Assembly: GCA_014860625.1 (NCBI GenBank)
Contig: JACZJJ010000074.1
Location: 1-36,271, forward strand
Source: Bacteroidales bacterium
GTDB taxonomy: Bacteria; Bacteroidota; Bacteroidia; Bacteroidales; FEN-979
Direction: 5' to 3'
DNA: 36,271 nucleotides
Within the stretch, counting starts at the first letter, position 1. Each line of letters begins with the position of its first letter. The notes under the pieces are model-generated. The model made no database searches. It was not told the DNA's origin and saw only the letters and a program-made list of their open reading frames with translations. Position numbers and translations under genes: made by a program. This document shows, one piece after another, positions 546 to 31,654 of this stretch.

Positions 546-615
546 GCTGTTTGCTGTTCGCTGTTCGCTGTTCGCTGTTCGCTGTTCGCTGTTCGCTGTT
601 CGTTTTTCGTTTTTC
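546..615 (-). repeat. Heptamer tandem array between flavin reductase and hydroxylase genes
   Basis: On the plus strand: one GCTGTTT, seven exact GCTGTTC units (553-601), then two GTTTTTC units (602-615). On the coding strand these read GAACAGC and GAAAAAC. The array fills the gap from the flavin reductase stop codon (617-619) to the hydroxylase start (542). No spacers are present, so this is not a CRISPR array. Confidence 0.95.
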
Positions 616-616
616 G

Positions 617-1258
617 CTATTGGGGTTTGGCCAGCTCAAAAAGGGATTCTCCACTGGCACGCACGTAGTAATTGCCTCCCATGCGGCCGACCAGATCAAT
701 TTTCTGCGGATCTATCCGTCCCTTGCTGTCGAGGATCGCTGTATTTACATGCATCCTGATGATTTCGCAGATAACCAGGTTCCCCGCGCCGCCTTCAACC
801 CCTGTTTCCACAATATTCAATACCTTGCATTCGAACTGCACCGGCGACTCTTTGACCCTAAAGGGCTTGACCAGTTCGGAGGGCTCCATCGTAAATCCAA
901 CCATGTCAAACTCGTTCACTCCTTTGGCAAATTCGGCGCTGGAATCGTTCATCTTCTGCACCATCTCATAGTTTACCACATTGATCACTACCTCGGGCAC
1001 CTCTTTCACATTTTCGTAACTGTGTTTTGTGGTACTGTCGTGGCCACGCCGTGCCGGAGAGAAGATCAGAATCGGTGGATTGGCTCCGAAAGCATTGAAA
1101 AAGCTGAATGGTGAAAGGTTTGGTCGTCCCTCTTTGTCGATGGTACTTGCCAGGGCGATGGGACGCGGAGCCACAGCTCCCAGCATCGTTCCGTGAAATT
1201 CGGCAAGAGGTGTCTCTTTCGGGTTGAAGTGAATGTATTTGTCAGTGGTCGTATTCAT
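617..1258 (-). CDS. Flavin reductase-like FMN-binding split-barrel protein
   Basis: 213 residues, the usual size for the flavin reductase-like / FMN-binding split-barrel family. The conserved N-terminal part has APRPIALAST (about residues 30-39), followed by NLSPFSFFNAFGANPPILIFSP, typical of the flavin-binding strands. Members bind FMN and either reduce it with NAD(P)H for a partner oxygenase or act on other substrates. No partner flavin monooxygenase is visible here. It lies 15 nt downstream of the fah stop and upstream of the hydroxylase gene, so it is almost certainly co-transcribed with aromatic amino acid breakdown. Its role there is not evident from sequence; regenerating a reduced cofactor or an unrecognised ring-modifying step are both guesses. 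The stop codon sits at the edge of the heptamer array. Confidence 0.85.
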   Translation of the reverse strand: MNTTTDKYIHFNPKETPLAEFHGTMLGAVAPRPIALASTIDKEGRPNLSPFSFFNAFGANPPILIFSPARRGHDSTTKHSYENVKEVPEVVINVVNYEMVQKMNDSSAEFAKGVNEFDMVGFTMEPSELVKPFRVKESPVQFECKVLNIVETGVEGGAGNLVICEIIRMHVNTAILDSKGRIDPQKIDLVGRMGGNYYVRASGESLFELAKPQ

Positions 1259-1273
1259 GAATCGTTCGTTTCT

Positions 1274-2545
1274 CTATTTTGCCGGCAGAATCCGGGTTGT
1301 AACCTCTCCAAAACCAATGCGTAATCCCTCTCTCTCCGCATAGCCGCGCATGATGACGGTATCGTTGTCGTGGATGAATTTTCGTTCACTCCCATCGGGC
1401 ATCCCGACAGGCTTAGTTCCTTTCCATGCAATCTCCATCATGGAGCCAAACGAATCGGGAGTAGGGCCGCTGATGGTCCCGGAGGCGTACATATCGCCAA
1501 CATTGATGTTGCATCCGTTCACCGTTTGATGAGCCAGTTGCTGGGCCATGTTCCAATACATGAATTTGAAGTTGGAATGCGACACCAGGTGCTCAGCGCC
1601 TCCTTCAGGCCGGATCAGCACATCGAGCTGGATGTTGAGATTCCGTTCTCCGGATGTTTGCAGATACGGAAGCACGGCAGGCTCCTGTTTCGGTCCCTGA
1701 ACCCTGAAAGGCTCCAGGGCATCCAGGGTAACGACCCAGGGTGATGCCACTGATCCAAAATTCTTACCCAGGAACGGTCCCAGGGGCACATACTCCCATT
1801 TCTGAATGTCGCGTGCCGAGAGGTCGTTGAAGAGCACCAATCCAAAGATGTACTCTTCGGCATCTCTTACCGGAACAGATTCTCCCAGCGAGGTGCTTTT
1901 CCCGGCGATAAAAGCCATCTCCAGCTCAAAGTCGACCTGCTTGCTTGGGCCAAACTCAGGCAGTTCGGCATCGTCGGCTTTGGTTTGTCCTTTTGGCCTG
2001 TGAACGGGTGTTCCCGATACCACAATGGAAGAGCTCCTGCCGTGATATCCTACCGGGATATGCTTCCAGTTGGGGAGAAGCGCATTGGCCGGATCGCGAA
2101 ACATGATGCCCACGTTGGTAGCATGTTCGATGCTGGAGTAGAAGTCGGTATAATCCCCAACCTTAACAGGCAGCAACATCTCAACATCCTGAATGTCAAC
2201 AAGGATGGTACTGTGATCTTTTACCCTGTCGCGAAGAAAAGAGTTCCTTGCTTCAAACAGCTCCGAAAGCCTGTTCCGAACAGCTCTCCAGGTTGGTTTG
2301 CCCAATGAGATGAAGTTATTCAGTGAAGAGCTCAAAAACACATCCGGCTCAATGTGAAAGTCGTGAAAATAGCCCAGGGCAGCCAGGCTGTAAAGATCGA
2401 TCACAGTGTCGCCGATCCGCGATGCCGCCCGGGGAGAAAGGTCTTTGGTAAGGATGATCCCAAAGGGGATGTTCTGGATGGGAAAATCACTCCCCGGAGG
2501 TACCGGAAGCCAGGAGGAGAGGGAAGGATTGTTGGTATTGTTCAT
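1274..2545 (-). CDS. fah: Fumarylacetoacetase
   Basis: 423 residues when started at ATG 2545. An upstream in-frame ATG (2638) would add 31 residues translated from the repeat array and a hairpin, so it is rejected. The product hydrolyses 4-fumarylacetoacetate to fumarate and acetoacetate, the last step of tyrosine breakdown. Residues match the metal and catalytic sites of the eukaryotic-type enzyme: DFYSSIEHA (Asp134, His141), FELEM (Glu207, Glu209), FNDLSARD (Asp241) and FLGKNFG (Lys261), plus VGYHGRSSSIVVSGTP. Length fits the family. It follows hpd after a 139-nt junction holding two heptamer arrays and a hairpin, and is followed by the flavin reductase gene. A maleylacetoacetate isomerase, needed between HmgA and this enzyme unless the isomerisation occurs otherwise, is not in the window. 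Confidence 0.95.
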   Translation of the reverse strand: MNNTNNPSLSSWLPVPPGSDFPIQNIPFGIILTKDLSPRAASRIGDTVIDLYSLAALGYFHDFHIEPDVFLSSSLNNFISLGKPTWRAVRNRLSELFEARNSFLRDRVKDHSTILVDIQDVEMLLPVKVGDYTDFYSSIEHATNVGIMFRDPANALLPNWKHIPVGYHGRSSSIVVSGTPVHRPKGQTKADDAELPEFGPSKQVDFELEMAFIAGKSTSLGESVPVRDAEEYIFGLVLFNDLSARDIQKWEYVPLGPFLGKNFGSVASPWVVTLDALEPFRVQGPKQEPAVLPYLQTSGERNLNIQLDVLIRPEGGAEHLVSHSNFKFMYWNMAQQLAHQTVNGCNINVGDMYASGTISGPTPDSFGSMMEIAWKGTKPVGMPDGSERKFIHDNDTVIMRGYAEREGLRIGFGEVTTRILPAK

Positions 2546-2548
2546 TTG

Positions 2549-2590
2549 TTGTCGGTTGTCGGTTGTCGGTTGTCGGTTGTCGGTTGAGGG
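2549..2590 (-). repeat. Heptamer tandem array just upstream of fah
   Basis: Five exact TTGTCGG units (2549-2583) plus a degenerate TTGAGGG (2584-2590) on the plus strand; CCGACAA on the coding strand. The array ends 3 nt before the fah start codon. Confidence 0.95.
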
Positions 2591-2609
2591 GCGGGTTTGG
2601 AACCCGCCC
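2589..2609. repeat. Perfect GC-rich hairpin between hpd and fah
   Basis: GGGCGGGTT (2589-2597), a 3-nt loop TGG, then the exact complement AACCCGCCC (2601-2609): a 9-bp perfect stem. No T-run follows on either strand, and it lies inside an operon, so a dispersed palindromic (REP-like) element or an mRNA processing/stability hairpin is more likely than a terminator. It sits between two heptamer arrays. Confidence 0.85.
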
Positions 2610-2627
2610 TTACCAGGCCCCTCTCTC

Positions 2628-2683
2628 TCATTCCTCATTCGTCATTCGTCATTCGTAATTCGTCATTCGTAATTCGTAATTGA
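2628..2683 (-). repeat. Heptamer tandem array after the hpd stop codon
   Basis: Eight 7-nt units on the plus strand: TCATTCC, TCATTCG x3, TAATTCG, TCATTCG, TAATTCG, TAATTGA. The array begins 1 nt after the hpd stop codon (2685-2687, read on the minus strand). Confidence 0.95.
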
Positions 2684-2684
2684 T

Positions 2685-3815
2685 TTAAAGCGTTCCCCTG
2701 CTCTCCTGCTCGAGTTCAATGGATTCGAAAAGCGCTTTGAAATTTCCTTTCCCGAACGATTTCGCTCCTTTCCGCTGGATGATCTCGTAGAAAAGGGTAG
2801 GACGGTCTTCTACCGGTTTGGTGAAGATCTGCAGGAGGTAGCCTTCATCATCCCGGTCAACCAGGATACCCAGTTCGCGTAATGGGGTTAACGATTCATC
2901 GATCTCCCCTACCCTATCGAGAACAGTGTTGTAGTAAGTATCCGGAACCCGTAAAAATTCAACTCCGCGGTCGCGAAGCATGGTCACTGTTTCAATGATG
3001 TTTTTGGTAGCCATCGCCACATGCTGAACACCCGGTCCGTGGTAAAAGTCGATATACTCCTCGATCTGCGATTTTTTCTTTCCGTGAGCCGGCTCGTTGA
3101 TCGGAAATTTGATCCGGAAGTTATCGTTGGCCATCACCTTGCTCATCAACGCGGTATATTCGGTGGAGATATCTTTGTCGTCGAACGATATCAGTTGTCT
3201 GAACCCCATCACATCGGCGTAGAACTTCGCCCATACATCCATCTCATTCCAACCTACATTGCCAACCATATGGTCAACATAAAGCAGACCAACATCTTCC
3301 GGTTGATAAAGAGGTTCCCACGCGATATAACCTGGCATGAATATCCCGTTGTAGTTCCGTCTCTCTACAAAAAGGTGCACCGTTTCGCCATAGGTATGAA
3401 TCCCGGCAGTGACCACCTCTCCCAACTCGTCCTTTTCGGCCCGGGGCTCGGAATAGCTCCTTGCGCCCCGTTTAACGGTCTCTTCATACGACTTCCGGGC
3501 ATCATCCACCCAAAGGGCTACCACCTTTACGCCGTCGCCGTGAAGTTTGCAATGGTCTGCCACAGGAGACTCGGGAGTCAGAGCGGTGGTTAACACAAAG
3601 GTGATCTTATCCTGCCGGATGACATAGGAGGCCCGGTCTTTCAACCCGGTTTCAAGGCCTGCATAGGCCAATGGCTGAAACCCAAAGGCTGTCTGGTAAT
3701 AGTGCGCTGCCTGCTTGGCATTGCCCACATAAAATTCGACGTAATCGGTTCCGTTGATCGGCAAAAAATCGTTTTGGGTTTCGGGTTTCGGGTTTCGGGT
3801 TTGTTCTGCATTCAT
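2685..3815 (-). CDS. hpd: 4-hydroxyphenylpyruvate dioxygenase
   Basis: 376 residues; converts 4-hydroxyphenylpyruvate to homogentisate with Fe(II) and O2. It has two tandem vicinal-oxygen-chelate domains, with iron ligands in the C-terminal one: His182 (YVDHMVGNV), His265 (GPGVQHVAM) and Glu344 (LFYEIIQRKGA). The C-terminal helix region KGNFKALFESIE is conserved in the family. The fold begins near residue 16 (NDFLPINGTDYVEF). Residues 4-15 (EQTRNPKPETQN) are encoded by a heptamer array, and no other in-frame ATG precedes the conserved fold, so this odd N-terminus appears to be translated. The gene follows hmgA after 27 nt that are themselves heptamers. An aminotransferase supplying the substrate is not in the window. 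Confidence 0.95.
   Translation of the reverse strand: MNAEQTRNPKPETQNDFLPINGTDYVEFYVGNAKQAAHYYQTAFGFQPLAYAGLETGLKDRASYVIRQDKITFVLTTALTPESPVADHCKLHGDGVKVVALWVDDARKSYEETVKRGARSYSEPRAEKDELGEVVTAGIHTYGETVHLFVERRNYNGIFMPGYIAWEPLYQPEDVGLLYVDHMVGNVGWNEMDVWAKFYADVMGFRQLISFDDKDISTEYTALMSKVMANDNFRIKFPINEPAHGKKKSQIEEYIDFYHGPGVQHVAMATKNIIETVTMLRDRGVEFLRVPDTYYNTVLDRVGEIDESLTPLRELGILVDRDDEGYLLQIFTKPVEDRPTLFYEIIQRKGAKSFGKGNFKALFESIELEQESRGTL
3771..3805 (-). repeat. Heptamer array inside the hpd coding sequence
   Basis: Plus-strand units GTTTTGG, GTTTCGG x3 (3778-3798), GTTTGTT. It codes for residues 4-15 of the dioxygenase. Because 7 is not a multiple of 3, one unit more or less would put hpd out of frame. 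Confidence 0.9.
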
Positions 3816-3843
3816 ATTTCGTAATTCTTAATTCTTAATTCCT
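3816..3843 (-). repeat. Heptamer array filling the hmgA-hpd gap
   Basis: Four 7-nt units on the plus strand (ATTTCGT, AATTCTT, AATTCTT, AATTCCT). They run from immediately next to the hpd start codon (3813-3815) to the first base of the hmgA stop codon (3843-3845), so the intergenic gap is nothing but repeat. Confidence 0.85.
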
Positions 3844-5003
3844 CATCCCCCCAGCCACGACCTGTAATAATCAGGGTTCTCAAGGGCCATTGCCTGTTTT
3901 GTGATTTTCAGCGGTTTGAACGTATCTACCATCACGGCAAGCTCTTCCGTTCCTTTGGCTCCGATGCTTCGCTCCACGGCTCCGGGATGAGGGCCGTGCG
4001 GGATGCCGGTGGGGTGCAGGGTGATCATCCCCTGTTCAATGTTGTTGCGGCTCATGAAGTCGCCATCTACGTAGTAAAGAACTTCGTCGGAATCGACATT
4101 GCTGTGGTGGTATGGAGCGGGAATGCTGTCGGGGTGATAGTCGTACAACCTTGGTACAAACGCGCACATGACAAACGTAGGGGTTTCAAATGTCTGGTGC
4201 ACCGGAGGAGGCTGATGAAGCCGGCCGGTGATGGGTTCAAAATCGTGGATCGACAGGGCAAACGGGTAGTGGTAACCGTCCCAGCCAATCAGGTCGTAGG
4301 GATGGGAAGCGAAATGGTAGGGCCAGATGCGGTCGCTGCGTTTGATCTTTACCAGAAAATCGCCCTTTTCATCATGGGTCTCCAACCCGGCAGGAGGCCG
4401 GATGTCGCGCTCGCAAAAGGGGGAGTGCTCCATCAGTTGCCCAACCTTGTTCATGTATCTTTTTGGGAAACGCAGAGGAGTGAACGACTCAACGATGAAG
4501 AGCCGGTTGTCGGTTCCCTTGAATTCCATCTGGTAGATCACCCCGCGTGGAATCACCAGGTGATCGCCGTAGCTGAACGGGATGTTGCCGTACATGGTTC
4601 TCAAAACGCCTTCGCCACGATGGACAAAGATCATCTCATCGGCTCCCGAATTCTTGAAGAAATAGTCTTTCATCGATTTTCGGGGGGCAGCCAGTGAAAT
4701 ATGCAGGTCGCTGTTTACCAGCACCGGGATGCGGCTTTCGAGGTAGTCGTCAGCTGCAGGAACCTCCATTCCCTTGAAGCTGCGGTGCTGCATGTTCTGG
4801 TCGACGGCTATTTCAGGTGCAACGCAGCAGGACTCCCCAATGCGGTCGACCATCGTGGGAGGATGGCAATGGTAAACCAGGGAATAGGTGTCGGAGAAGC
4901 CCTCTGTCGACACCAGCTGCTCCGCATAGAGCCCTCCGTCGGGCTTCCTGAAAACGACATGGCGCTTTCTCGGAATCTGGCCAAGTGTTTGGTAATGTGG
5001 CAT
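3843..5003 (-). CDS. hmgA: Homogentisate 1,2-dioxygenase
   Basis: 386 residues; opens the homogentisate ring to 4-maleylacetoacetate using Fe(II) and O2. It is a cupin-fold protein, with the C-terminal metal region seen as PAPYHHSNVDSDEVLYYVDG (candidate ligands His299/His300 and Glu307) followed by TGIPHGPHPGAVERS (His336/His339). Which His is the ligand cannot be fixed by eye. N-terminal features such as YQTLGQIPRKRHVVFRKPDGGLYAEQL and FSDTYSLVYHCHPPT fit the HmgA family. It is the first gene of the operon, with its start 23 nt from a strong Bacteroidetes-type promoter. It is shorter than the roughly 430-440-residue proteobacterial enzyme, with no visible break. Confidence 0.93.
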   Translation of the reverse strand: MPHYQTLGQIPRKRHVVFRKPDGGLYAEQLVSTEGFSDTYSLVYHCHPPTMVDRIGESCCVAPEIAVDQNMQHRSFKGMEVPAADDYLESRIPVLVNSDLHISLAAPRKSMKDYFFKNSGADEMIFVHRGEGVLRTMYGNIPFSYGDHLVIPRGVIYQMEFKGTDNRLFIVESFTPLRFPKRYMNKVGQLMEHSPFCERDIRPPAGLETHDEKGDFLVKIKRSDRIWPYHFASHPYDLIGWDGYHYPFALSIHDFEPITGRLHQPPPVHQTFETPTFVMCAFVPRLYDYHPDSIPAPYHHSNVDSDEVLYYVDGDFMSRNNIEQGMITLHPTGIPHGPHPGAVERSIGAKGTEELAVMVDTFKPLKITKQAMALENPDYYRSWLGG

Positions 5004-5025
5004 GGTTTTTAAGCTAAATCTGTCA

Positions 5026-5056
5026 CAAATTTATATTAATTCTAAATAAAAACAAA
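5026..5056 (-). promoter_or_regulatory. Bacteroidetes-type promoter of the homogentisate operon
   Basis: Reading the minus strand: TTTG at 5056-5053 (-33 box), exactly 19 nt, then TAAATTTG at 5033-5026 (-7 box, consensus TAnnTTTG). Transcription should start near 5020, leaving a leader of under 20 nt before the hmgA ATG at 5003. Confidence 0.7.
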
Positions 5057-5072
5057 ATATAATTAAAAGTCG

Positions 5073-5080
5073 TACCTTTA
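5073..5080 (+). promoter_or_regulatory. Possible -7 box of the secreted Asp-box gene
   Basis: TACCTTTA matches TAnnTTTG except at the last base. No TTTG lies at the right distance upstream. It would give a leader of about 25 nt before ATG 5113 and would make 5004-5112 a divergent promoter region. Confidence 0.35.
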
Positions 5081-5112
5081 CGCTCCAAACCAAACCATCA
5101 TTTCCTTCGCTC

Positions 5113-8778: not shown

Positions 8779-8797
8779 CTGCTAAGACGTTACCCGA

Positions 8798-11308: not shown

Positions 11309-11314
11309 AGGAGG
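11307..11314 (+). promoter_or_regulatory. Strong Shine-Dalgarno sequence, rare in this window
   Basis: AAAGGAGG, 6 nt before ATG 11321 and overlapping the stop codon of the preceding peptidase gene (11306-11308). Neighbouring genes lack such a site, so it stands out and fixes the start of the lipoprotein gene. Confidence 0.75.
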
Positions 11315-11320
11315 CATTAA

Positions 11321-11773: not shown

Positions 11774-11784
11774 TCAGGCCCCTG

Positions 11785-12975: not shown

Positions 12976-13005
12976 CGAGAGCAAACGATCAGGAGTATCC
13001 GGGAT

Positions 13006-13548: not shown

Positions 13549-13567
13549 TGAAAAAGAGTCTGGCCTG

Positions 13568-13575
13568 CAAAGATA
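13568..13575 (-). promoter_or_regulatory. -7 box of the acetyltransferase gene
   Basis: TATCTTTG on the minus strand (13575-13568) matches TAnnTTTG and lies 20 nt before ATG 13548. No TTTG is seen at the normal -33 distance. Its position inside the longer reading frame decides for the shorter start. Confidence 0.5.
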
Positions 13576-13588
13576 AAAGAATAGCAAA

Positions 13589-13620
13589 TTTGTTTATCCG
13601 TCTGTATTAGGTTATATTTG
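13589..13620 (+). promoter_or_regulatory. Promoter of the choloylglycine-hydrolase-family gene
   Basis: TTTG at 13589-13592, 20 nt spacer, then TATATTTG at 13613-13620: both Bacteroidetes promoter boxes at standard spacing. The ATG follows at 13636. It is back to back with the acetyltransferase promoter. Confidence 0.65.
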
Positions 13621-14996: not shown

Positions 14997-16568
14997 ATGA
15001 AAAAAATAGTTACGCTCAGCACCTGCATTCTCATCACATGCATCTCTTTTGCTCAAAATCCCGGGGATCTGGTGCAAACATATGGAATGAATGGAATCAG
15101 TGTTATCAGCTTAACGGATAGAAGAAATGTATTGTCAGATATTGCACTGCAAAGTAACGACAGACTAATCACTGCTGGAAAAACTTTCTATTTACCAACA
15201 TCAGAGTGGAATACCATGGCAACCAGGCTTACCAAAGATGGCATGCTTGACAATTTCGGAAACAATTCAATTTTTTTTCAAAACGATTTCAATAATGATG
15301 AAGATGAAGAGGCGTTTGCCTGCTGTGTACTTCCTGATGACAAAATACTGCTTGCAGGAGCATATACATCTGGGTCGGAAGAATATCATTTTGTATCGCA
15401 ATTAACTTCCGATGGTCAACTGGATCCTTCTTTCGGAAACGCAGGATCCTATATAAATGAATCGATACCTTTTTATATGATTTCCCTTAAAACTTATGCA
15501 AGTTCCAGTCTTAATACTATCCTGGCGTGTGGTTCTTCTGGCACTTTTGACCCTGCGATGTTAACACTGGATGAGAATGGCGATCCGGTTAGTTCTTTTG
15601 GGGATAACGGATATTATATTTGTACAGAATTGCATTGTTATTTCACAGATATTGTCGTTGACAGGACGGGAGGGTATATTTATGCATGTGGTTTCAATAG
15701 GCTTGTACCAGCATATTGTTTCGTTAGCAAACATAACTTAATCACCGGCGCGCTGGTAACCACTTTTGCTGATAATGGCGTTATGAAAATTAATCCCTTT
15801 GGGAGTGCACTTTTATTCACTACTTATACCATCGTTTTTGAAGAAGACACTGACTTGATTACGGTTTTCGGGGACTATAAACATACGGATGGAGATTTCG
15901 ATATTTTTGCATTTCGCTTACATGCCAATGATGGAAGTTTTGATAATTCATTTGGACTCAATGGCTTTTCAACTCTGAGAATCCCCTCATCCAACGAGTA
16001 CATCAATACCGCAGTGCTTCAATCCAACGGTCAGTATTACTTTGGTGGGTACACTGATAGTTCAGCAGATAATGATTTTATGCTCGGGAGGATAGATACC
16101 AACGGCGTTCTCGATCAAACTTTCGGTAATAATGGATTTACAATTACTGACATGGGGTTGGATGAACAAATAGAAAAGCTTGTATTGAATGAAAATGAAA
16201 GCAGGATATTAGCCGGTGGAAACATATCATCTGGAAACCACCAAATGATGGTGGCATGCTACCATACAGGATATCATCCCTCCGGTATTGTATCCAATAA
16301 AGATCAAGGGATACATGCAACGATCTATCCCAATCCGGTAAATGGTGACAATTTCACAGTATCATTTGACATCAACCATGAATCAGAATTGATTATCAAC
16401 CTTTTATCAATTGAAGGACAACTGATTAAGCAATGCTCATCAGCGCACAAGACAGCCGGGAATTACAGTGAAACATTTCATTTACCTTCTGGCTTGCCTG
16501 GAGGAGTTTACATCATTGAGATGAAGTTAACTAATTATTCCACCTTTCTGAAACTTGTCAACTATTAA
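14997..16568 (+). CDS. Secreted delta-60-repeat protein with T9SS sorting domain
   Basis: 523 residues with a signal peptide (MKKIVTLSTCILITCISFAQ). At least five copies of a repeat of the form LxxDGxLDxSFGxxG are visible, such as QLTSDGQLDPSFGNAG, TLDENGDPVSSFGDNG and RIDTNGVLDQTFGNNG, spaced about 55-60 residues, each followed by a strand like DDKILLAGAY. This is the delta-60 repeat, thought to form a beta-propeller-like structure. The C-terminus (ATIYPNPVNGDNFTV ... LPGGVYIIEMKLTN ... LKLVNY) is a T9SS sorting domain, so it is probably exported. No enzyme motif is seen. The coding sequence is noticeably AT-richer than the genes on both sides and lies between two copies of a direct repeat, which suggests later arrival at this place. 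Confidence 0.85.
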   Translation: MKKIVTLSTCILITCISFAQNPGDLVQTYGMNGISVISLTDRRNVLSDIALQSNDRLITAGKTFYLPTSEWNTMATRLTKDGMLDNFGNNSIFFQNDFNNDEDEEAFACCVLPDDKILLAGAYTSGSEEYHFVSQLTSDGQLDPSFGNAGSYINESIPFYMISLKTYASSSLNTILACGSSGTFDPAMLTLDENGDPVSSFGDNGYYICTELHCYFTDIVVDRTGGYIYACGFNRLVPAYCFVSKHNLITGALVTTFADNGVMKINPFGSALLFTTYTIVFEEDTDLITVFGDYKHTDGDFDIFAFRLHANDGSFDNSFGLNGFSTLRIPSSNEYINTAVLQSNGQYYFGGYTDSSADNDFMLGRIDTNGVLDQTFGNNGFTITDMGLDEQIEKLVLNENESRILAGGNISSGNHQMMVACYHTGYHPSGIVSNKDQGIHATIYPNPVNGDNFTVSFDINHESELIINLLSIEGQLIKQCSSAHKTAGNYSETFHLPSGLPGGVYIIEMKLTNYSTFLKLVNY

Positions 16569-16674
16569 ACTTAAAACTACTTTTTCCATAATTTGGGTTC
16601 CTCATCAACAGCAAGATCAGTGATAATTCTTCCTGACAACCGGCAGCGCAACACATCTGTACCTGGCAGGTTAG

Positions 16675-16851
16675 AACACCAATCCTTCTGGTGGTGATTA
16701 CCCGGTAATTCTTAAACTGGATCATGATGGATACAATGTCAATTCCTTTGGTATAGATAGATGGTGTATTGAGTCTGGATGGTTGGCGGTAAAATTTTAT
16801 CCTGGGATAAAACCATCCCATGCAGTATTTACAAAGAAACATTGCTGATTC
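16675..16851 (+). pseudogene. Possible remnant of a repeat-type secreted protein gene
   Basis: About 58 codons are open between stop codons TAG (16672-16674) and TGA (16849-16851), without an ATG start. The translation includes GGDYPVILKLDHDGYNVNSFG, which resembles the LxxDGxxxxSFG repeat of the gene just upstream. A decayed paralogue is one reading; chance similarity is possible because the match is short. Confidence 0.3.
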
Positions 16852-16962
16852 CACAAGGACTGTCAAAAGGGGTATAAATCCTTACTGTTATTGTGGAAAG
16901 CCATATCTACCAGCAAAAGATCATCATTTTATAGGACTCCGCAACGAACAGTTTGAAGAGAA

Positions 16963-17022
16963 CAGCAAGCAATCGTCGATCTATCAGGGAAAAGAGTCGC
17001 AGCGAAGTACCCACCTCATGAC
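16963..17022 (+). repeat. Direct repeat copy 2 (diverged hydrolase gene end)
   Basis: Matches 14695-14754 with a few mismatches and small gaps; GAGTCGCAGCGAAGTA (16994-17009) is identical. Here it is not part of any gene. Confidence 0.75.
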
Positions 17023-17067
17023 TTCCAGACTTCCTGACTTCCTGACTTCCTGATCTCCTGATCTTTT
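17020..17067 (+). repeat. Octamer tandem array upstream of mtgA
   Basis: Six 8-nt units: GACTTCCA, GACTTCCT x3, GATCTCCT, GATCTTTT. It follows the diverged copy of the hydrolase gene end directly, as the shorter octamer pair does at the real gene end. Confidence 0.9.
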
Positions 17068-17078
17068 CAAAATCTTCA

Positions 17079-17086
17079 TACCTTTG
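17079..17086 (+). promoter_or_regulatory. -7 box of mtgA
   Basis: TACCTTTG matches TAnnTTTG and lies 17 nt before ATG 17104. No clear -33 box; the region where it should lie is the octamer array. Confidence 0.5.
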
Positions 17087-17103
17087 TCAAACATTTCAAC
17101 ACG

Positions 17104-17799
17104 ATGCGCAAATTCCCCAAACGGATCCTGAAAGTTGTCTTATACCTGCTCATAGGGTTCTTTGGGGCCTCCTTCTTCCTTGTCCTGCTCTATAAATTCG
17201 TCCCGCCGCCAATAACCCCGCTGATGGTTGTCAGGCTCCTGGAGAAGCCAGTAAAAGGTCAAACTTACAGGCTATACAAGGATTGGGTCCCACTGAAAGA
17301 GATCTCTCCAAATCTGCAGACGGCTGTAATAGCTTCAGAAGACAACCGATTCCTGAAGCATTTTGGCTTCGACATGGATGCCATTGAGAAAGCGCAGGAA
17401 TACAATGAAAAACAGAAAGGGAAACGGCTTCGGGGAGCCAGCACCATTTCCCAGCAAACCGCCAAGAATGTCTTTCTTTGGCCACAGCGGTCGTGGATCA
17501 GGAAAGGCATGGAAGTTTACTTCACTTTTTTGATTGAACTCACCTGGAGCAAGCGCCGGATCATGGAGGTCTATCTCAACGTGATCGAGATGGGCAAAGG
17601 GATCTATGGCGCCGAAGCCGCTTCCCAAACCTATTACCATAAACATGCTGCCAAACTCACCCGCGGAGAAGCCGCGCTGATCGCTGCCATCCTGCCCGAT
17701 CCGCGGCGAAGAAGTCCTGTAAATCCCTCTGCTTACCTTCTCGAACGCCAGCAGTGGATCCTTTGGAACATGAATAACATCGGCAAGATTGAATACTGA
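17104..17799 (+). CDS. mtgA: Monofunctional peptidoglycan glycosyltransferase
   Basis: 231 residues, the normal size for MtgA. One membrane anchor (about 8-32) is followed by a GT51 domain: VIASEDNRFLKHFG (catalytic Glu79), RGASTISQQTAKNVFLW, RIMEVYLNVIEMGKGIYGAEAAS and LTRGEAALIAAILPDPRRRSPVNP, which are the standard GT51 motifs. It polymerises lipid II into glycan strands on the outer face of the inner membrane and has no transpeptidase domain. It has its own promoter and is followed after 84 nt by ppdK, which also appears to have one. Confidence 0.95.
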   Translation: MRKFPKRILKVVLYLLIGFFGASFFLVLLYKFVPPPITPLMVVRLLEKPVKGQTYRLYKDWVPLKEISPNLQTAVIASEDNRFLKHFGFDMDAIEKAQEYNEKQKGKRLRGASTISQQTAKNVFLWPQRSWIRKGMEVYFTFLIELTWSKRRIMEVYLNVIEMGKGIYGAEAASQTYYHKHAAKLTRGEAALIAAILPDPRRRSPVNPSAYLLERQQWILWNMNNIGKIEY

Positions 17800-20616: not shown

Positions 20617-20618
20617 TT

Positions 20619-23099: not shown

Positions 23100-23124
23100 A
23101 GGGCCTTAACTTAATGAGCAAATA

Positions 23125-23132
23125 CAAAGATA
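23125..23132 (-). promoter_or_regulatory. Possible -7 box of the histidine kinase gene
   Basis: TATCTTTG on the minus strand (23132-23125), 25 nt before ATG 23099. A TTTG at 23150-23147 is only 14 nt away, shorter than the usual spacing. Confidence 0.4.
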
Positions 23133-23161
23133 TGGTAAAACCCTTACAAATAAAAAACCTT

Positions 23162-23189
23162 CTTCCCTCTTCCTTCTTCCTTCTTACTT
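23162..23189 (-). repeat. Heptamer array over the stop codon of the TonB receptor gene
   Basis: Plus-strand units CTTCCCT, CTTCCTT, CTTCCTT, CTTACTT. The TTA of the last unit (23184-23186) is the receptor gene's TAA stop codon on the minus strand. Confidence 0.9.
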
Positions 23190-25520
23190 TAATATATACC
23201 TCACCCCTGCATATACCGTTATGCCAGTAATCGGGCCCCATACCACTGAGCCGTCGAAATAAGGCTGGTAAGGGGATTCATATTGCTGGATCGGATCCGG
23301 TTGCCGGTAATTGGTCAGGTTCTCTCCACCCAGGTAAACTTCGAACTTACCGAAAGTCCTCGATACCTGAGCCATAAGATTAAACCATACTGGTGATTTA
23401 TCAGGCCATTGCAACTCAGGAGGAAGTTTATCGGAATCGGGAAGCCGTGCCGGACCATTCAGCTGTCCGGTCAAATCAAATTTCCAAAGGTCAGAATGTG
23501 TTTTATACGACAAGGTTAACAATCCTTTATAGGCATTCACCATGGATTTCGTTTTCAACCTCCCCCCTTCGGTCACTTTCACTTCGTTCAGCCTGAATGC
23601 CCCGGTAACTGTAAGACCTTCGATGGGATGAAATGTCAGTTGTGCCTGCAGACTAATGGCATAAGAGCTCCCGTCAAGGTTATAGAAAAAGACCTTATCG
23701 GGCATGCTGTCCACATCCACAATCACCTGGTTGACAAAGCTGGTCTGATAGATATCGAAGCTGAATTGAGCGTCCCGTTTGAACAGGTTGAAATCTTTTG
23801 TGAAGTTTAGTCCAAAATTCCATGCCTCTTCCTGGTCCAGGGTCTCACCCAGAATCCATGTACGCTGACTGACAAACAGATTGCTGTTCTCTGCCAGGAT
23901 GTTCGCAGTACGGTATCCTTTCCCCACTGAAGCCCTGAGGAATGTACTTCCATTGAGCTGATGCCGGAGATGCAGCCTGGGGGTGAAGAGTGCACCATAC
24001 AGGTTGTTGTAATCTACCCGCAAACCGGCAATCAGTATGAACACAGGACAGAGGTCAAACGTATATTCCATGAAAGCTCCCGCCACCCATTCGGTTCTGT
24101 CCATGTTGATATTCACCAACGAATCTCCCGTCAATGGGTAACGGAACAGACTCAGTGTATCAAAAAGCGCGGATGTCGCATAAGAGAGCTGGTGCTGTGA
24201 ATAATTCTCCGAATAGTCGTCCAGGGAATAATTTATCCCGGCAGAGATCCTGTGCATATTCTCCCGGAAGCCTGTCGACAGGGAAACCATCCCCTCGAAT
24301 CGTTGTTCATGACCATGGTACCTGTTGATCCCATAGAAACCATCCTGCTGATGGTTAATTCCCGAAACAGAAACATCAAGGATTGTATTCCCGCATTCTC
24401 CAAGCAGAAACCGGTTTTTCCAGAAAGCTTCCAGCCGGTTGGTCCGGATGCCTATGCCATATCTTTTTGTATTGCTGCTGATGCCGGAGGTATCGAAAAC
24501 AAACGAATCCGGATCAAAGCTCATCTGGCCGCCATTCCTCTCCTCATAAAGGTATTTGATTGCTAATCTCGAAAGGTATCTCCCGGGATTGATATAGTCC
24601 CACCTGTTCATTGCTGTCAGGGTGGTCGATAGCGGCAGGTCCATGAACCCATCACCATTACGGTCAAACTTATGCTGCATGGTGCTGCCGTGCAGCAGTA
24701 GCATCGTACTCAGTTTATCGTTCATTCTTACCGATCCGTCCCCGTTTAGCTCCATACGCAGATTGCTGTTTCCATAGAGGTTAAGAAACAATTTCTCACT
24801 ATCCTCAGGCTTTTTATACTCGACGTTAATCTGTCCGGTAATCGACTCATACCCCTGGGAGACGGATGAGGCGCCTTTGGAAATCTGGATAGACTCCATC
24901 CAGGGACCAGGGATATAGCTCAAGCCATAAGGTGCGGCCAAGCCACTGATCAGCGGCACATTTTCCGTCATGACCTGGCTGTACAAGCCCGACAAACCAA
25001 GCAACTGGATCTGACGTGCTCCGGAAATGGCATCACTGTAAGAGACATCTACCGAAGCGTTGGTTTCGAAACTCTCAGCCAGATTGCAGCAGGCAGCACG
25101 CTCCAGCTCACCTCCCGTTACTACCTGAGTATACCGCGGGTTTAGTTTTGAGAGGTAGGAGTCTTCTATTTTTCCCTCCACCACTACCTCCCCTAGAAGT
25201 TGCTCTGTTGAATGCATCTCCAGATCTACCGGCCGAAAATCCGATTCTACAACCACCGTATCCTTCGCAAACCCCATCAAACTGAATATCAGTCTATTGT
25301 CATGGTTTTTATGAGTGGGGAGCATGAAATTTCCCTCGGCATCAGTGAATGTTCCCTGCAAGTTATGAAGCCAGTAAACATTCACTCCTGTCAAAGGAAC
25401 AGGTTGATTCTTATCATTTTTCTCATAGACAAAACCACGAACCATTTGAGCAGCACAAGGGATCGTCAGAATGAATGATAAAAGAAAAACGGAACTTATA
25501 ACTTTACACAGTTTTATCAT
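23184..25520 (-). CDS. TonB-dependent outer membrane receptor in the metal island
   Basis: 778 residues: signal peptide (about 1-24), carboxypeptidase-regulatory-like domain (about 27-105), plug (about 115-235, with LGLSGLYSQVMTENVPLISG and ISKGASSVSQGYESITGQINVEYK) and a 22-strand-type barrel ending in the aromatic-rich GVRYILK. TonB receptors bring scarce ligands across the outer membrane using energy from the inner membrane. The plug has an unusual Cys pair (RAACCNLAESFETN, Cys144-Cys145). The gene starts 4 nt after the P1B ATPase stop, so it is in the metal operon. A metal or metal-chelate ligand is therefore likely, but whether it imports or supports removal is unknown. Confidence 0.9.
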   Translation of the reverse strand: MIKLCKVISSVFLLSFILTIPCAAQMVRGFVYEKNDKNQPVPLTGVNVYWLHNLQGTFTDAEGNFMLPTHKNHDNRLIFSLMGFAKDTVVVESDFRPVDLEMHSTEQLLGEVVVEGKIEDSYLSKLNPRYTQVVTGGELERAACCNLAESFETNASVDVSYSDAISGARQIQLLGLSGLYSQVMTENVPLISGLAAPYGLSYIPGPWMESIQISKGASSVSQGYESITGQINVEYKKPEDSEKLFLNLYGNSNLRMELNGDGSVRMNDKLSTMLLLHGSTMQHKFDRNGDGFMDLPLSTTLTAMNRWDYINPGRYLSRLAIKYLYEERNGGQMSFDPDSFVFDTSGISSNTKRYGIGIRTNRLEAFWKNRFLLGECGNTILDVSVSGINHQQDGFYGINRYHGHEQRFEGMVSLSTGFRENMHRISAGINYSLDDYSENYSQHQLSYATSALFDTLSLFRYPLTGDSLVNINMDRTEWVAGAFMEYTFDLCPVFILIAGLRVDYNNLYGALFTPRLHLRHQLNGSTFLRASVGKGYRTANILAENSNLFVSQRTWILGETLDQEEAWNFGLNFTKDFNLFKRDAQFSFDIYQTSFVNQVIVDVDSMPDKVFFYNLDGSSYAISLQAQLTFHPIEGLTVTGAFRLNEVKVTEGGRLKTKSMVNAYKGLLTLSYKTHSDLWKFDLTGQLNGPARLPDSDKLPPELQWPDKSPVWFNLMAQVSRTFGKFEVYLGGENLTNYRQPDPIQQYESPYQPYFDGSVVWGPITGITVYAGVRYILK

Positions 25521-25524
25521 CTTT

Positions 25525-27828: not shown

Positions 27829-27947
27829 AAACAGAACAACAGTTTAATTAGTGTTTCTTGAGTGAAGCTCAAACAGCCATAAAGCCCTGTTCAAGCGAGA
27901 GACCATCCCTACCGGCCAGGACTCAATGCCTGGACCAGCAGGAACAG

Positions 27948-27975
27948 CTTCCCTCTTCCCTCTTCCCTCTTACTT
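27948..27975 (-). repeat. Heptamer array over the stop codon of the HMA protein gene
   Basis: CTTCCCT x3 (27948-27968), then CTTACTT (27969-27975) on the plus strand. The TTA at 27970-27972 is the TAA stop codon of the HMA gene. The last unit is identical to that over the TonB receptor stop. Confidence 0.9.
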
Positions 27976-28317
27976 ACTCTCCGGCCTGTCATACTTGCAG
28001 CAACCGTGCAGTGCATCATAGGTCTTGCTGTCAGCTTTTACGTTATCCGTATCATGGCCAACTTTTGCAACGGCTTCTTCAATTTTTAGCACTGTTGTTT
28101 TAGTGTCATCATACGTCACTTTCAGCATCTTCTTTGTGGCATCCCATGTTGCTTTCGAAACGCCTTCTACAGATTTTGCTGCCTTTTCAATTCGAGTTTT
28201 ACACATTCCGCAATTGCCGTACACTTTGATTTCCTCTGTTTTCCCATCTTTTGCAAAAAGGGAGGTCATGCCAATAAACAGCATTGCTACTACCAGCATC
28301 ATTGATTTTGTTTTCAT
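27970..28317 (-). CDS. Periplasmic heavy-metal-associated (HMA) domain protein with Cys-Cys tail
   Basis: 115 residues with a signal peptide (about 1-22), then one HMA domain with the metal loop YGNCGMCKTRIE (Cys36, Cys39), and a tail with HGCC (Cys106-Cys107). HMA domains of this type carry Cu(+), Ag(+) or Hg(2+). Placed outside the inner membrane, it could act as a periplasmic metal shuttle between the ATPase and the Cus efflux complex. It lies between cusB (107 nt) and the ATPase gene (141 nt). Its whole mature layout (HMA then a Cys-Cys tail) is repeated at the C-terminus of the CusB protein next door. Confidence 0.88.
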   Translation of the reverse strand: MKTKSMMLVVAMLFIGMTSLFAKDGKTEEIKVYGNCGMCKTRIEKAAKSVEGVSKATWDATKKMLKVTYDDTKTTVLKIEEAVAKVGHDTDNVKADSKTYDALHGCCKYDRPESK

Positions 28318-28358
28318 TGTTTGAATTTTAAGATTAATGTTAAGGTTGATTGTTATTT

Positions 28359-28393
28359 GAAATTTGAAATTCGAAACTTGAAACTTGAAACTT
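28359..28393 (-). repeat. Heptamer array between cusB and the HMA gene
   Basis: Plus-strand units GAAATTT, GAAATTC, GAAACTT x3. It lies in the 107-nt junction, 31 nt after the cusB stop codon, the only array in the window not touching a stop codon. Degenerate 7-nt units may bridge this distance. Confidence 0.85.
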
Positions 28394-28424
28394 AATAAGT
28401 ATTCGTCTTCTTCCGTCTTACGTT

Positions 28425-30002
28425 TTACTCAATCTTACAGCAGGCCGGAAGGTTCTCGTATACCACTTTATCAGCAAGAACATCATCTGCTCCATAGCCT
28501 AGCTGTGAGATAGCTTTTCTGATCTTTTTTGAGTTTGTTTTGGCCGGATCAAAGCTCACGCTCACCACCTTTGTATCAAGGTCAACATTCACTCCCTTCA
28601 CTCCTTTCTCCTTCACAAGGCCTTTTTCTATCGTCTCCCGGCACATGTCGCATACCACTGTCGACGCAATCTCAACCTTCTCGATCGCTGAAGCCGGCTC
28701 CACACTCATCATGCTGGGTTTTCCTTCGAGTTGAGCTGCAGCATCCACACTGAAGGTGCCTTCTGTGACAATCTCCTCCCCTTCTGCAAGTCCTTCAACT
28801 ACCACGTAACTGTTTCCGAGCCGGGGACCTAAGGTGATCTCCCGCAATTTAAACGTGGGCTCCTCCTCATCTGCCAGCCTGACATAAACGACTGACCGTT
28901 TCCCGGTCCACATGACCGCTGACCTGGGAATAACCAGGTTGTTTTTAAATTGATCTGTGTGTGCCTGAATCACTCCTGCTGCAAACATTTCGGGTTTCAG
29001 CTGTCCATTGTGATTTGGGAGTTCAACCCGTATTTTTGCCACCCGAGTCGCGGGATCCACAAAGGGATCCACAAACTTCACAGTAGCCTTGTATGTCTTC
29101 CCTGGCATCGCTTGAAGTGTATAGGTTATCTTATCGCCAGTGCGGATGAAAGGCAGGTCCTGCTCATAGGCATCGAACAAAACCCAGAGTTTCGACAGGT
29201 CGGCTATATCGAACAGGGTTGTTCCGCGGTTCACATAATCTCCCACATTGATACGTCGTGCCATGACAATCCCCGACGTGCCTGCAAGTACGGGAAACTC
29301 AGTAGTTATTTCTCCGGAATTCTCAATAGCTGCAATCTGATCAGGTGTCAGCTTCCATTGTCTGAGGCGTTCCCGGGCGGCTTCCAGAATGGCCGGCTGA
29401 ATATCTTTCATCTTCATTGCCTCCAGCAAATCCTGTTGAGCCTTAATCAACTCCGGAGAGTATATCTTCGCAAGGATCTGACCTTTTTTGACCGTTTCAC
29501 CGGTAAAATTCACATCCAACTCTTCGATCCGACCGGGGATATGGGCAGGTTGACTCTGCAATAACCGTTCATCGGGCTGTACCGTACCATAAAGCCGAAT
29601 CTCCCTGGCAGACTGGTTCTTTGAAACCACGGAGGTCTGAACATGTGCCAACGCAATAGCCTCCGCAGAGAGCTGGATAGCTGTGGGATCCTGGGTCACA
29701 CCGCCCTGCATCAGAGGGATCAGATCCATGGCACAAATCGGGCATTTCCCAGGTTCATGCATGCGGATCTGGGGATGCATGCTGCAGGTCCAGATCTCCT
29801 CCTGAGCCGAAACTCCTTGGTGTTCATGGCTATCAACTTGCTGCTGGGTTTCAGGCAGACCCTTCCCTGGTGAATGGAAAAATAACCATCCGGTAAAAAG
29901 TCCCAGACCTATCAAAAATATTGTTCTTATATATCTGTATACCTTGGTTTTACTTATTTCATTCACCTTGATATAATCTCTGAATTGCTTCATCCTTTTC
30001 AT
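28425..30002 (-). CDS. cusB: CusB-like periplasmic adaptor with N-terminal heavy-metal domain and C-terminal HMA domain
   Basis: 525 residues. A membrane anchor (about 26-43) is followed by a heavy-metal-binding domain (TCSMHPQIRMHEPGKCPICAMDL, Cys73 to Cys90), then the membrane-fusion-protein core with barrel-sandwich, alpha-hairpin and beta-barrel parts (IPGRIEELDVNFTGETVKKG, VMARRINVGDYVNRGTTLFDIADLSKLWV, FVDPFVDPATRVAKIRVELPN). From about 443 to the end comes an added HMA domain with VVCDMCRETIE (Cys451, Cys454) and a tail with PACCK (Cys521-Cys522). It should link the CusA pump to the outer membrane channel and pass Cu(+)/Ag(+) to it. The HMA fusion is absent from E. coli CusB. It is 12 nt downstream of the channel gene. 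Confidence 0.92.
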   Translation of the reverse strand: MKRMKQFRDYIKVNEISKTKVYRYIRTIFLIGLGLFTGWLFFHSPGKGLPETQQQVDSHEHQGVSAQEEIWTCSMHPQIRMHEPGKCPICAMDLIPLMQGGVTQDPTAIQLSAEAIALAHVQTSVVSKNQSAREIRLYGTVQPDERLLQSQPAHIPGRIEELDVNFTGETVKKGQILAKIYSPELIKAQQDLLEAMKMKDIQPAILEAARERLRQWKLTPDQIAAIENSGEITTEFPVLAGTSGIVMARRINVGDYVNRGTTLFDIADLSKLWVLFDAYEQDLPFIRTGDKITYTLQAMPGKTYKATVKFVDPFVDPATRVAKIRVELPNHNGQLKPEMFAAGVIQAHTDQFKNNLVIPRSAVMWTGKRSVVYVRLADEEEPTFKLREITLGPRLGNSYVVVEGLAEGEEIVTEGTFSVDAAAQLEGKPSMMSVEPASAIEKVEIASTVVCDMCRETIEKGLVKEKGVKGVNVDLDTKVVSVSFDPAKTNSKKIRKAISQLGYGADDVLADKVVYENLPACCKIE

Positions 30003-30014
30003 TATTATTTTTCT

Positions 30015-31586
30015 TTATTCAGTTTGAGCAACACCAGCCTTCGCCATCAGGCGGTCAAGAGTGGCCAGTGCAATATTATTTTCCACCATGGCTGAAATTT
30101 TAAGCAGTTCATAATCGAGTAACTGTTGCTCGATTTTCAGCAGTTCATCCAGCCCCGTACCTGAAACACTGAATTCCACGATCATCAGGTTGAGGGTTTT
30201 TTGTGCCAGGTGGGCTTGCCGGGTATAGAGCTGGATTCTTCTTATAGCATCGTTCTGCCTTTTTAGTACATTCTGATAATCTACAGAGAGGGAATTCCTC
30301 ATGGCAGAGATTTGATTCGCGGTAGCCATGCTCAGGAATTCCGCCTCTTTTCTCTGGGCAGAGTATTTGCCCCGGTAGATGGGAAGTGTGATTTTTCCCA
30401 TTGGCATGAACATGTCCTTCCCGTTCATCATCGACGTATTGCCATCCCTGGGGTTGATCAGCATGTAATCAATTCCCAAACCGAACATTGGGTAGCTCAT
30501 CCGTTTCGACATCCGGATGCGCTCGTCAAAGGCCTGCTTTTCCATCGACAGCATATTCAGCATCGTATTGTTTGACCAGATGCTGTCGCGCGTAGCCAAG
30601 AAAGATCCGATTGGAAACTCCTGCCCGAGGGTATCCGGAAGAAATACAGGCATATCAGATCGCCGGTTCAGGAGGCTGTTCATTGTTGTGATCAAAACGG
30701 TTTGTTGCGATTTCCAGTCGGCCAGTCGGTTTTCCAGATCCCCCATTTCGATCTGGATCCGGTACAGGCTGATCAGGTCGGAAGAGCTACCCATTTGACC
30801 CATTCCGCCACCTGTCATGCTCCCCGGCATTTGGTCCATGTTCGATCCTGTTAATCCTCCTGTCTGACTACCTGAGGAGTTGCCAGACATCCCACCAGAC
30901 ATACCACCCTCCATTCTGCCGGCTGTATTTCCTGAAGCCTTTCCCTGCGATCCTGTGGAGTTACGCTGGATCGGTTGCTGACTGGAACCCGATTCATAGG
31001 TGCCGGGTGTCGATGTTGAGAAACGGGTGAGCGCAATCCGTTCAATGGCCTTCAGGAGCTCGAGGTTTTTTTGTGTTACACTGATCTGCGACCGATTCAG
31101 GTAGAGTTCAAGCCAGGCTTTCCGTACATTGAAGAACACCTCCTGCTTTACATCCCTGAATGATTCAAATTTTGCTTTCGCCATCAGGGAAGCTTCATCC
31201 CGGGCCGAACGAAGTGATCCAAACCAGGGGAACATCTGCATCAGCTGAAAGTCAGCCACCTGGTTTCCTCCCATCAGTTCCATGGGCTTGATGAAGACTC
31301 CAAAGCTGAATTCGGGATCAGGCAACCCTCCAGCCTGTGGTGCCTTCTCCTTGGCAGCCAGGTACTCGTTAAACTTCGCCTTAACAGAGGGATTGTTCTT
31401 TGCTGCAAGTTCAAGGTAAGCTGCCAGGGAGTCGTGCATAATAGTCTGACCCATCGAAATATCTGTACCCGACAGGACCATCATCACTATAAAAACCCTT
31501 AACAGGATTGTCTGAGGAGTACTCCAGGGAATCATCTTAAGAATCATCTTTTTTAAATGAGATCGAATTTTATTAACCTTCTTCAT
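30015..31586 (-). CDS. TolC/CusC-like outer membrane efflux protein with Met/Gly/Ser-rich insert
   Basis: 523 residues. Signal region up to about 47 (a long, Lys-rich N-terminus, so the ATG at 31586 may not be the only start). The outer-membrane-factor coiled-coil pattern follows (LAAYLELAAKNNPSVKAKFNEYLAAKEKAPQA; later ALATLDRLMAKAG). Between the two repeats of the fold, residues about 192-270 form a low-complexity stretch rich in Gly, Ser and Met (eight Met between 225 and 265, as in GGMSGGMSG and MTGGGMGQMG). Methionine clusters bind Cu(+)/Ag(+), so this may be a metal-catching loop. It is co-transcribed between cusA and cusB, and should form the exit duct of the complex. Confidence 0.88.
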   Translation of the reverse strand: MKKVNKIRSHLKKMILKMIPWSTPQTILLRVFIVMMVLSGTDISMGQTIMHDSLAAYLELAAKNNPSVKAKFNEYLAAKEKAPQAGGLPDPEFSFGVFIKPMELMGGNQVADFQLMQMFPWFGSLRSARDEASLMAKAKFESFRDVKQEVFFNVRKAWLELYLNRSQISVTQKNLELLKAIERIALTRFSTSTPGTYESGSSQQPIQRNSTGSQGKASGNTAGRMEGGMSGGMSGNSSGSQTGGLTGSNMDQMPGSMTGGGMGQMGSSSDLISLYRIQIEMGDLENRLADWKSQQTVLITTMNSLLNRRSDMPVFLPDTLGQEFPIGSFLATRDSIWSNNTMLNMLSMEKQAFDERIRMSKRMSYPMFGLGIDYMLINPRDGNTSMMNGKDMFMPMGKITLPIYRGKYSAQRKEAEFLSMATANQISAMRNSLSVDYQNVLKRQNDAIRRIQLYTRQAHLAQKTLNLMIVEFSVSGTGLDELLKIEQQLLDYELLKISAMVENNIALATLDRLMAKAGVAQTE

Positions 31587-31654
31587 TTCGTATTTCGTAT
31601 TTCGTATTTCGTATTTCGTATTTCTTATTTCTTATTTCTTATTTCTTGTTTCCC
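31585..31654 (-). repeat. Heptamer array filling the cusA-channel gene junction
   Basis: Plus strand: ATTTCGT x5 (31585-31619), ATTTCTT x4 (31620-31647), GTTTCCC (31648-31654). The first unit overlaps the channel gene's start codon (31584-31586). The last units encode the end of CusA (TRNKK) and contain its stop codon (31632-31634). Confidence 0.97.

Follow-up and report, generated by a model that had tools for sequence, protein, structure and literature searches.

Tandem heptanucleotide repeats, which go by the name STRR, are considered here in a stretch of 36,271 nt (the window; contig C129, bases 1-36271) from a Bacteroidales genome of 3.77 Mb in 171 contigs. Such arrays are known from unrelated bacteria, and excerpts from PMC4692102 and PMC4679880, with the work cited there, give no accepted reason for their length or position. 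Mrazek 2007, on long simple sequence repeats, and work on the tandem heptanucleotides of Calothrix, both as cited in these two papers, present heptamers as the commonest long unit class and propose slippage of the polymerase. In Xanthomonas and Nostoc, GGGAATC and GGGGA(C/T)T heptamers favour stop-proximal sites on the sense strand, and their arrays overlap stop codons and avoid divergent gaps, according to the excerpts from PMC4692102. Those from PMC4679880 describe TAACTGA direct repeats in Beggiatoaceae, Cyanobacteria and five Bacteroidetes, other heptamer repeats as well, and 7-nt indels between close Cyanothece strains. Heptamer arrays in gaps, a bias toward gene ends and overlap with stops are thus already known, as far as these excerpts go. 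In the window and its relatives, many unit families share the gene-end bias, and an excess of array edges falls in register with the last bases of the stop codon. A slippage-prone repeat family that spreads and is trimmed to the stop codon by deletions is the simplest account and, on balance, a probable one.

Abundance, periods and stop register of the arrays

Repeats were surveyed in 925 kb of the source genome, comprising the window, 20 stretches and 39 further stretches; 11 of the first 20 came from contigs already matched in the search, and the 39 later ones were chosen independently. Sampled stretches and loci carry L numbers and genomes G numbers. Tandem Repeats Finder (TRF) was used with a score cut-off of 45, and exact runs were counted from 14 matches upward. 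L138 (contig C143, matched in the search) was omitted from the TRF survey, the first position survey and the density, and several of the relatives' stretches were taken from contigs matched in searches for the AATTACG and ACTGCCA units. TRF returned 137 arrays of period 7, 30 of period 8, 24 of period 9 and three of period 10; this sample held no array of period 5 or 6. Like intergenic heptanucleotide simple sequence repeats, the heptamer arrays are mainly non-coding: of the 137, 107 fall outside called genes, in a sample that is 12 percent non-coding. When every gap was shuffled five times with its dinucleotides preserved, period-7 arrays were absent from the pooled result, which contained two arrays of period 14 and two of period 21. 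A chance origin of the period-7 arrays is excluded, and the observation made by an earlier, sequence-only reading of the window (the first-pass annotation) holds against the shuffled background.

Exact runs in the gaps of the same sample give a similar picture, with 73 of period 7, 20 of period 8 and 15 of period 9, none of periods 5-6 and few of periods 10-13; period 7 thus exceeds both the other periods and the shuffled controls. The 39 independently chosen stretches contain 144 arrays per Mb. Twelve of 92 true contig ends have an array within 50 nt, against 1.6 percent expected; arrays break assemblies, and their lengths and densities are therefore probably underestimates. In 11 other genomes of the family, exact runs in gaps number 17, 20 and 0 for periods 7, 8 and 9, with an additional 15, 4 and 0 within called genes, and TRF on the same stretches finds 72, 40 and 2. 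Five genomes from other families of the order yielded period-7 counts of 3 (G026), 0, 0, 0 and 3 (G040, 27 kb only). The first-pass annotation had period 7 nearly everywhere, which stands for the source genome as the commonest length, but periods 8 and 9 occur too, and among the exact runs in gaps of the family, though not by TRF, period 8 outnumbers period 7. Two of the 11 family genomes, G009 and G019, have no period-7 array by TRF in the stretches sampled; G009 has six of period 8 in 89 kb (L179-L183; AAATGGCG three times, AAATGGTG and two others), and the favoured period may thus differ between genera.

A first position survey found arrays in 66 of 400 co-directional, 14 of 70 convergent and 5 of 91 divergent gaps. 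Co-directional gaps held 79 TRF arrays; a stop was no more than 5 nt away from 27 of them, with 11.0 expected, and 47 were closer to the stop and 32 closer to the start. The anchor statistics drew on the stretches of the source genome, 11 of the 16 other sampled genomes and 24 of the 80 named loci (L009-L030, with L035 and L042 added because arrays had been seen there); G026, G031, G032, G034, G040 and the other 56 named loci were omitted, and gaps of less than 10 nt, or containing long N runs, were skipped. Exact runs in this pool place arrays in 88 of 868 co-directional, 17 of 146 convergent and 6 of 202 divergent gaps, and at this strict threshold 780 of the co-directional gaps are without an array. 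In 19 of the 88 gaps the block nearest the stop began within it or directly at it, against 2.7 under random placement; none of 20,000 simulations reached 19. At or inside the start it fell in one of the 88, with 2.7 expected (N runs in L188 produced a spurious start-side value of 0); there is no peak at start codons, and anchoring to them was rejected. Blocks cover at least 80 percent of the gap in 9 of the 88.

A finer test of the boundary counted runs from 10 matches upward and covered 172 gaps, the null being random reinsertion with chance extension recomputed. Thirteen gaps had the boundary at -2 (0.7 expected), nine at -1 (1.6) and nine at -3 or below (0.4); three lay at 0 (3.4), 27 at 1-5 (19.5) and 24 at 6-12 (19.8). 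Because the excess falls at -2 and -1 and is absent at 0, the repeat takes in the end of the stop, by one base or two, and does not just adjoin it. Examples are T·AATTACG, T·AGTTGGC, T·GATGTAC and T·AAGAGGG (the last from the window, at 27970), as well as, for periods 8 and 9, T·AAATGGTG and T·AGGTTGGAC; the raised dot follows the first base of the stop here and, further below, the whole stop. Thirty-nine arrays reach the first base after the stop, and in 35 of them the repeat also matches the third base of the stop, compared with 13.9 at random phase. Some units hold a whole stop (GAAGTAA in L090, TGAGACG in L142, TAGCGAT in L009) and extend further into the gene. The claim that arrays start at or near stops has therefore come out sharper than it was first put.

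The genes concerned keep their ordinary ends. Thirteen genes with in-register arrays gave 144 ortholog pairs, of which 120 agree to within 3 amino acids at both C-termini; for genes without arrays 1666 of 2329 pairs do so. Judged from these sequences, the proteins upstream of in-register arrays have native ends and their stops have been kept.

The arrays are also purine-rich on the coding strand, as the first reading of the window had it. Period-7 arrays in co-directional gaps have a purine fraction above 0.5 in 54 cases and below it in 16, and at a looser threshold periods 7-9 together give 141 against 77. Within 12 nt of a stop, 25 of 27 arrays are purine-rich; the bias near stops arises because two purines (RR) are required there. 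Array-free gaps show no purine bias (220 against 269 windows). The count for convergent gaps, 16:16, was tallied from both strands and is hence uninformative.

Unit families and the same gaps in relatives

The window alone had suggested a different unit at each site, and this was taken to speak against spread. Neither view survives the larger sample. The 137 period-7 arrays use 54 distinct units, with 239 identical unit pairs where random units of the same composition would give 8, and 763 pairs with one mismatch where 181 are expected; a unique unit per site was rejected accordingly. Since identical and near-identical units are shared between sites far over chance, unit families have spread. 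One unit follows the stop of four unrelated genes on four contigs in two genomes (TAA·TTACGAATTACG; L115, L124, L194, L195). Two families were searched in the source genome and 40 relatives, the counts being lower bounds: AATTACG arrays occur in at least 25 of the 41 genomes and ACTGCCA arrays in at least 15, mostly of the genus of the source genome, and each family has at least 22 matches in several genomes. Neighbouring units are mixed within single arrays, for example CGAATTA and CGAATGA at 2628-2681, and such arrays look as if a point change had been followed by local copying.

Corresponding gaps of relatives differ in what they hold. After the gene for 4-hydroxyphenylpyruvate dioxygenase (HPPD), L012, L013 and L019 have TAG·AATAT(C/T)GAATAT.., L017 has TAG·AATGACG.. 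and L042 has TAG·ATTTACG... In the gap between hmgA and HPPD, L009, the nearest named relative, combines CGATTAG units, which contain TAG, with 9-nt units; 9-nt units are also present in L012, L013 and L017, L019 and L022 resemble worn 9-nt arrays by eye, and L030 has a GAAGTGG/GAAGTCG array that begins TGA·AGTGG. Several other relatives, among those listed, have no obvious array in this gap. Within the genus of the source genome, L135 and L158 have one array in common, at the same gap and in differing copy numbers (one same-genus pair), and after orthologous genes L127 has period 8 and L153 period 7 with a different unit. The gap before the homologue of the window gene at 3-542 contains perfect palindromes of differing sequence in L015, L017, L019 and L022, and in L022 GCCGCACCGCAGTGCGGC stands three times in tandem.

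Explanations for the stop register

Under the account that we favour, the dispersed tandem arrays, of period 7 and less often 8 or 9, would be mildly selfish or neutral passengers of intergenic DNA. Unit families would spread through the genome and diverge as point changes arise and are copied locally into adjacent units. Expansion by slippage and spread by recombination are suggested by the established behaviour of simple repeats, and neutrality is likewise presumed. Arrays would lengthen the gaps, and small deletions that prefer short matching ends would trim the gaps again, a deletion being kept only when the upstream gene retains its stop at the usual place. Trimming would halt once the array makes up the end of the stop, by one base or two (T·AA, T·AG, T·GA), or the stop in full. 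The register could then arise without targeting, because trimming is limited by the protected stop codon, and DNA on the start side and divergent promoter gaps may be spared because of the initiation signals there. For the limit to periods 7-9, others have proposed a polymerase contact length, as cited in the excerpts from PMC4692102 and PMC4679880.

A simulation placed random arrays in native gaps and applied deletions of 1-60 nt that had to leave the upstream coding sequence and its stop in place. Of five weightings, the four that prefer matching ends gave a chi-squared of 9.7-11.3 over nine bins when about two deletions were kept in each gap, against 330.4 for random placement; a first version of the simulation had given a similar boundary shape. 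As the boundary distribution is reproduced, most of the stop peak can come from trimming. Arrays that are not anchored add to the DNA of the gap: the median sum of their flanks is 85 nt, and array-free gaps have a median of 85.5 nt.

Several points weigh against this account. Without a preference for microhomology the best chi-squared was 22.4; 20 combinations of settings were run, and the best, chosen after the data had been seen, are reported. These best-fitting runs overpredict boundary 0 (about 7-8 against 3 seen) and underpredict boundary -2 (about 8 against 13 seen). The remaining gap beside in-register arrays is weakly shortened, at 41 against 85.5 nt with the strict threshold (p 0.12) and at 65.5 against 81 nt (p 0.048) and 69 against 79 nt (p 0.11) with looser ones. 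In 11 of the 144 ortholog pairs the array-bearing protein is more than 3 amino acids longer, and that test covers few genes, with many pairs from the HPPD cluster of named loci. Copy-number change was seen in one same-genus pair, and genes were called by our own finder rather than taken from annotation. Finally, arrays far from the stop are still purine-biased (29 against 14), which trimming leaves unexplained. Selection acting through Rho or RNA might underlie the purine strand bias; for the arrays far from stops, selection against C-rich, Rho-prone RNA is our guess.

Targeted placement, in which a transposition-like, recombination or copying activity joins arrays to stops through 1-2 bases of homology, is an unlikely alternative to the trimming of spreading repeats. 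It would account for the spike at -2 and -1, the small number at 0 and the lack of a start-codon peak, and the units do occur as dispersed families. However, among 221 boundaries more than 3 nt past the stop, T·RR was seen 10 times with 12.2 expected (an RR start alone 73 times with 52.8 expected). T·RR as a DNA target at the level of sequence was rejected on this ground, and since it is unfavoured elsewhere, the targeting signal would need to be the stop as a stop. The deletion model fits with no targeting at all, and gaps beside in-register arrays tend, weakly, to be shorter than those free of arrays. A carrier element was not noticed, though no systematic search for one was made; the palindrome GGCGGGTT..AACCCGCC, considered as a carrier or control, has 23 pooled copies and 9 co-directional gaps, too few to judge. 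The enzyme acting at gene ends that had been suggested for the window is thus unneeded, as trimming reproduces the boundaries and T·RR is not favoured away from stops.

It is rather improbable that the position reflects functional selection, by which a purine-rich array after the stop would aid ribosome release, restart or mRNA stability, or block Rho-type termination in operons. The purine-rich coding strand, most marked close to stops, the lack of such a bias in array-free gaps and the depletion of divergent gaps are what it would lead one to expect. Yet most co-directional gaps have no array, the same gap of relatives holds another sequence or period or, among those listed, no obvious array, and the in-register boundary itself is not predicted.

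The first-pass annotation proposed birth in place, with a tandem copy of 7 bases made at the stop and then lengthened by slippage. The units that contain a stop would suit this origin, as would the local growth visible in mixed arrays, but it has become quite improbable given unit sharing far over chance and the recurrence of one unit at four unrelated stops. Fainter still is the prospect of a dedicated activity tied to translation stop sites, for instance via mRNA ends made there, that would seed 7-9-nt arrays by copying with 1-2 bases of homology, the stop serving as the first repeat unit. An assembly artefact is scarcely credible, for although the over-rich contig ends make lengths uncertain, separate assemblies share arrays at the same stop, such as the TAG·AATATCG type after HPPD in L012, L013 and L019. 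What remains of the first interpretation is the anchoring to gene ends, the narrow range of periods and the purine strand, and divergent gaps are avoided as well; the novelty of each unit does not hold up, and the gene-end enzyme is not required.

The window and its relation to described repeats

TRF recovers all eight arrays that had been noted in the window, at most a few bases from the coordinates first given, and they are located between or across the ends of minus-strand genes (Table 1). Clusters for tyrosine degradation and metal efflux are among the genes of the window, as are type IX secretion tails. For the HPPD region, the best named relatives are Bacteroidales and other Bacteroidota assemblies. 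A scan of the window against Rfam returned nothing at gathering scores.

Table 1. Tandem arrays of the window as delimited by TRF, with their place among the genes.
Array (unit)	Position	Strand	Source	Place
10.9 units, CAGCGAA on the coding strand	543..618	-	TRF	Fills the gap from the stop of a flavin-reductase-like gene (617-1258) to the start of the gene at 3-542; TAG stop at 617, final two bases in register (boundary -2, TRF)
5.6 units, CGACAAC on the coding strand	2548..2586	-	TRF	Ends 2 nt before the probable fumarylacetoacetase start codon (2545)
7.7 units, CGAATGA / CGAATTA mixed	2628..2681	-	TRF	Begins 3 nt past the TAA of HPPD (ORF 2685-3815)
4.6 units, CCGAAAC	3771..3802	-	TRF	Upstream of the conserved part of HPPD
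About 4.6 units, TAAGAAT, low-scoring	3810..3841	-	TRF	Occupies the remainder of the gap; begins 1-2 nt past the stop of an hmgA-like gene (3843)
AAGAAGG units	23158..23189	-	TRF	Overlaps the TAA stop of a TonB-dependent-receptor gene (23184-25520); in register, boundary -6
3.4 units, AGGGAAG	27948..27971	-	TRF	Exact register with the final two TAA bases of a heavy-metal-associated domain gene (27970-28317), boundary -2
5.3 units, GTTTCAA	28357..28393	-	TRF	Begins 31 nt past the stop of a CusB/HlyD-like gene (28425-30002)
10.4 units, ACGAAAT / AAGAAAT	31579..31652	-	TRF	Contains the stop of an RND transporter gene (31632-35459; boundary -14); extends to the ATG at 31586, the longest-ORF start of an outer-membrane efflux protein gene (30015-31586)
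Related period-8 array, TGACTTCC	17013..17061	.	TRF	Intergenic, upstream of the gene at 17104
Related period-8 array, TATTTCGC	36246..36271	.	TRF	At the window end

The HPPD reading frame opened at 3815 runs through the CCGAAAC array (MNAEQTRNPKPETQ..), and its match to TIGR01263 begins only at residue 22; this array-encoded N-terminal extension makes the start at 3815 doubtful. The unit TATTTCGC at the window end is also present in G002, G003, G008 and G021.

Other repeats share the gaps with the arrays. The dispersed palindrome GGGCGGGTTCCAAACCCGCCC occurs in gaps of the window (2586-2612), L129 (near 4694), L135 (near 11566) and L138, sometimes beside heptamer arrays, with 23 copies in the pooled sample, and looks like a REP-type element. 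Three copies lie in one gap of L138 (upstream of 7237, minus strand), where the TAA of the gene is the TAA of a repeated TAAGGGCGGG unit. Runs of an TGATGGAGGCCTTCGGCC-like unit of about 18 nt, each a small hairpin, follow the gene at 2672-3313 (-) in L135 and the gene at 15274-17403 (-) in L160. Some hairpin repeats, too, have a stop within their unit, as in TGA·TGGAG..TGATGGA of L135 and L160, where the TGA of the upstream gene opens the first unit, and in TAA·GGGCGGG..TAAGGGCGGG of L138; these three examples, which have no null beside them, would fit the trimming of any repeat.

A literature search for intergenic 7 bp tandem repeats in Bacteroidales returned no paper, and for heptamers in Bacteroidetes it returned PMC4679880 only; neither the load of many heptamer families in Bacteroidales nor the in-register boundary, nor a model of that boundary, was found in the literature searched, as far as the excerpts show. 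In a lineage with about 144 arrays per Mb and dozens of units, sites are numerous enough for birth, spread and trimming to be told apart. The in-register boundary, together with a model free of targeting, makes testable a position bias that had been suggestive.

In a cyanobacterial check, Trichormus variabilis plasmid A (350 kb) has eight exact runs of period 7, one of period 8 and none of periods 4-6 and 9; four arrays, one of them enclosing the stop, lie at -20 to +60 of a stop, too few for a test of register. Compared with the heptamers of Mrazek 2007 and Calothrix, as cited in the excerpts, the arrays described here include periods 8 and 9 beside 7, with 5-6 absent and 10-13 rare, and their stop register is seen. 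The TAACTGA repeats, according to the excerpts from PMC4679880, likewise form heptamer arrays in gaps, also in Bacteroidetes, but in their main species they lie mostly just upstream of starts, whereas here the peak is at stops and starts are avoided. With TAACTGA the unit of none of the 137 arrays and no start-side peak, the present arrays are not of that type. The Xanthomonas and Nostoc repeats, in the excerpts from PMC4692102, are of one G-rich, quadruplex-capable unit type, in contrast to the 54 units here; 26 of the 137 arrays have GGG in the unit on either strand and 111 do not, which sets them apart from the G-rich type. A stop register and a placement null, both given here, are not reported in those excerpts. 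The gene-end bias is nevertheless similar, and the present case serves as a warning that in Xanthomonas, too, it need not mean regulation.

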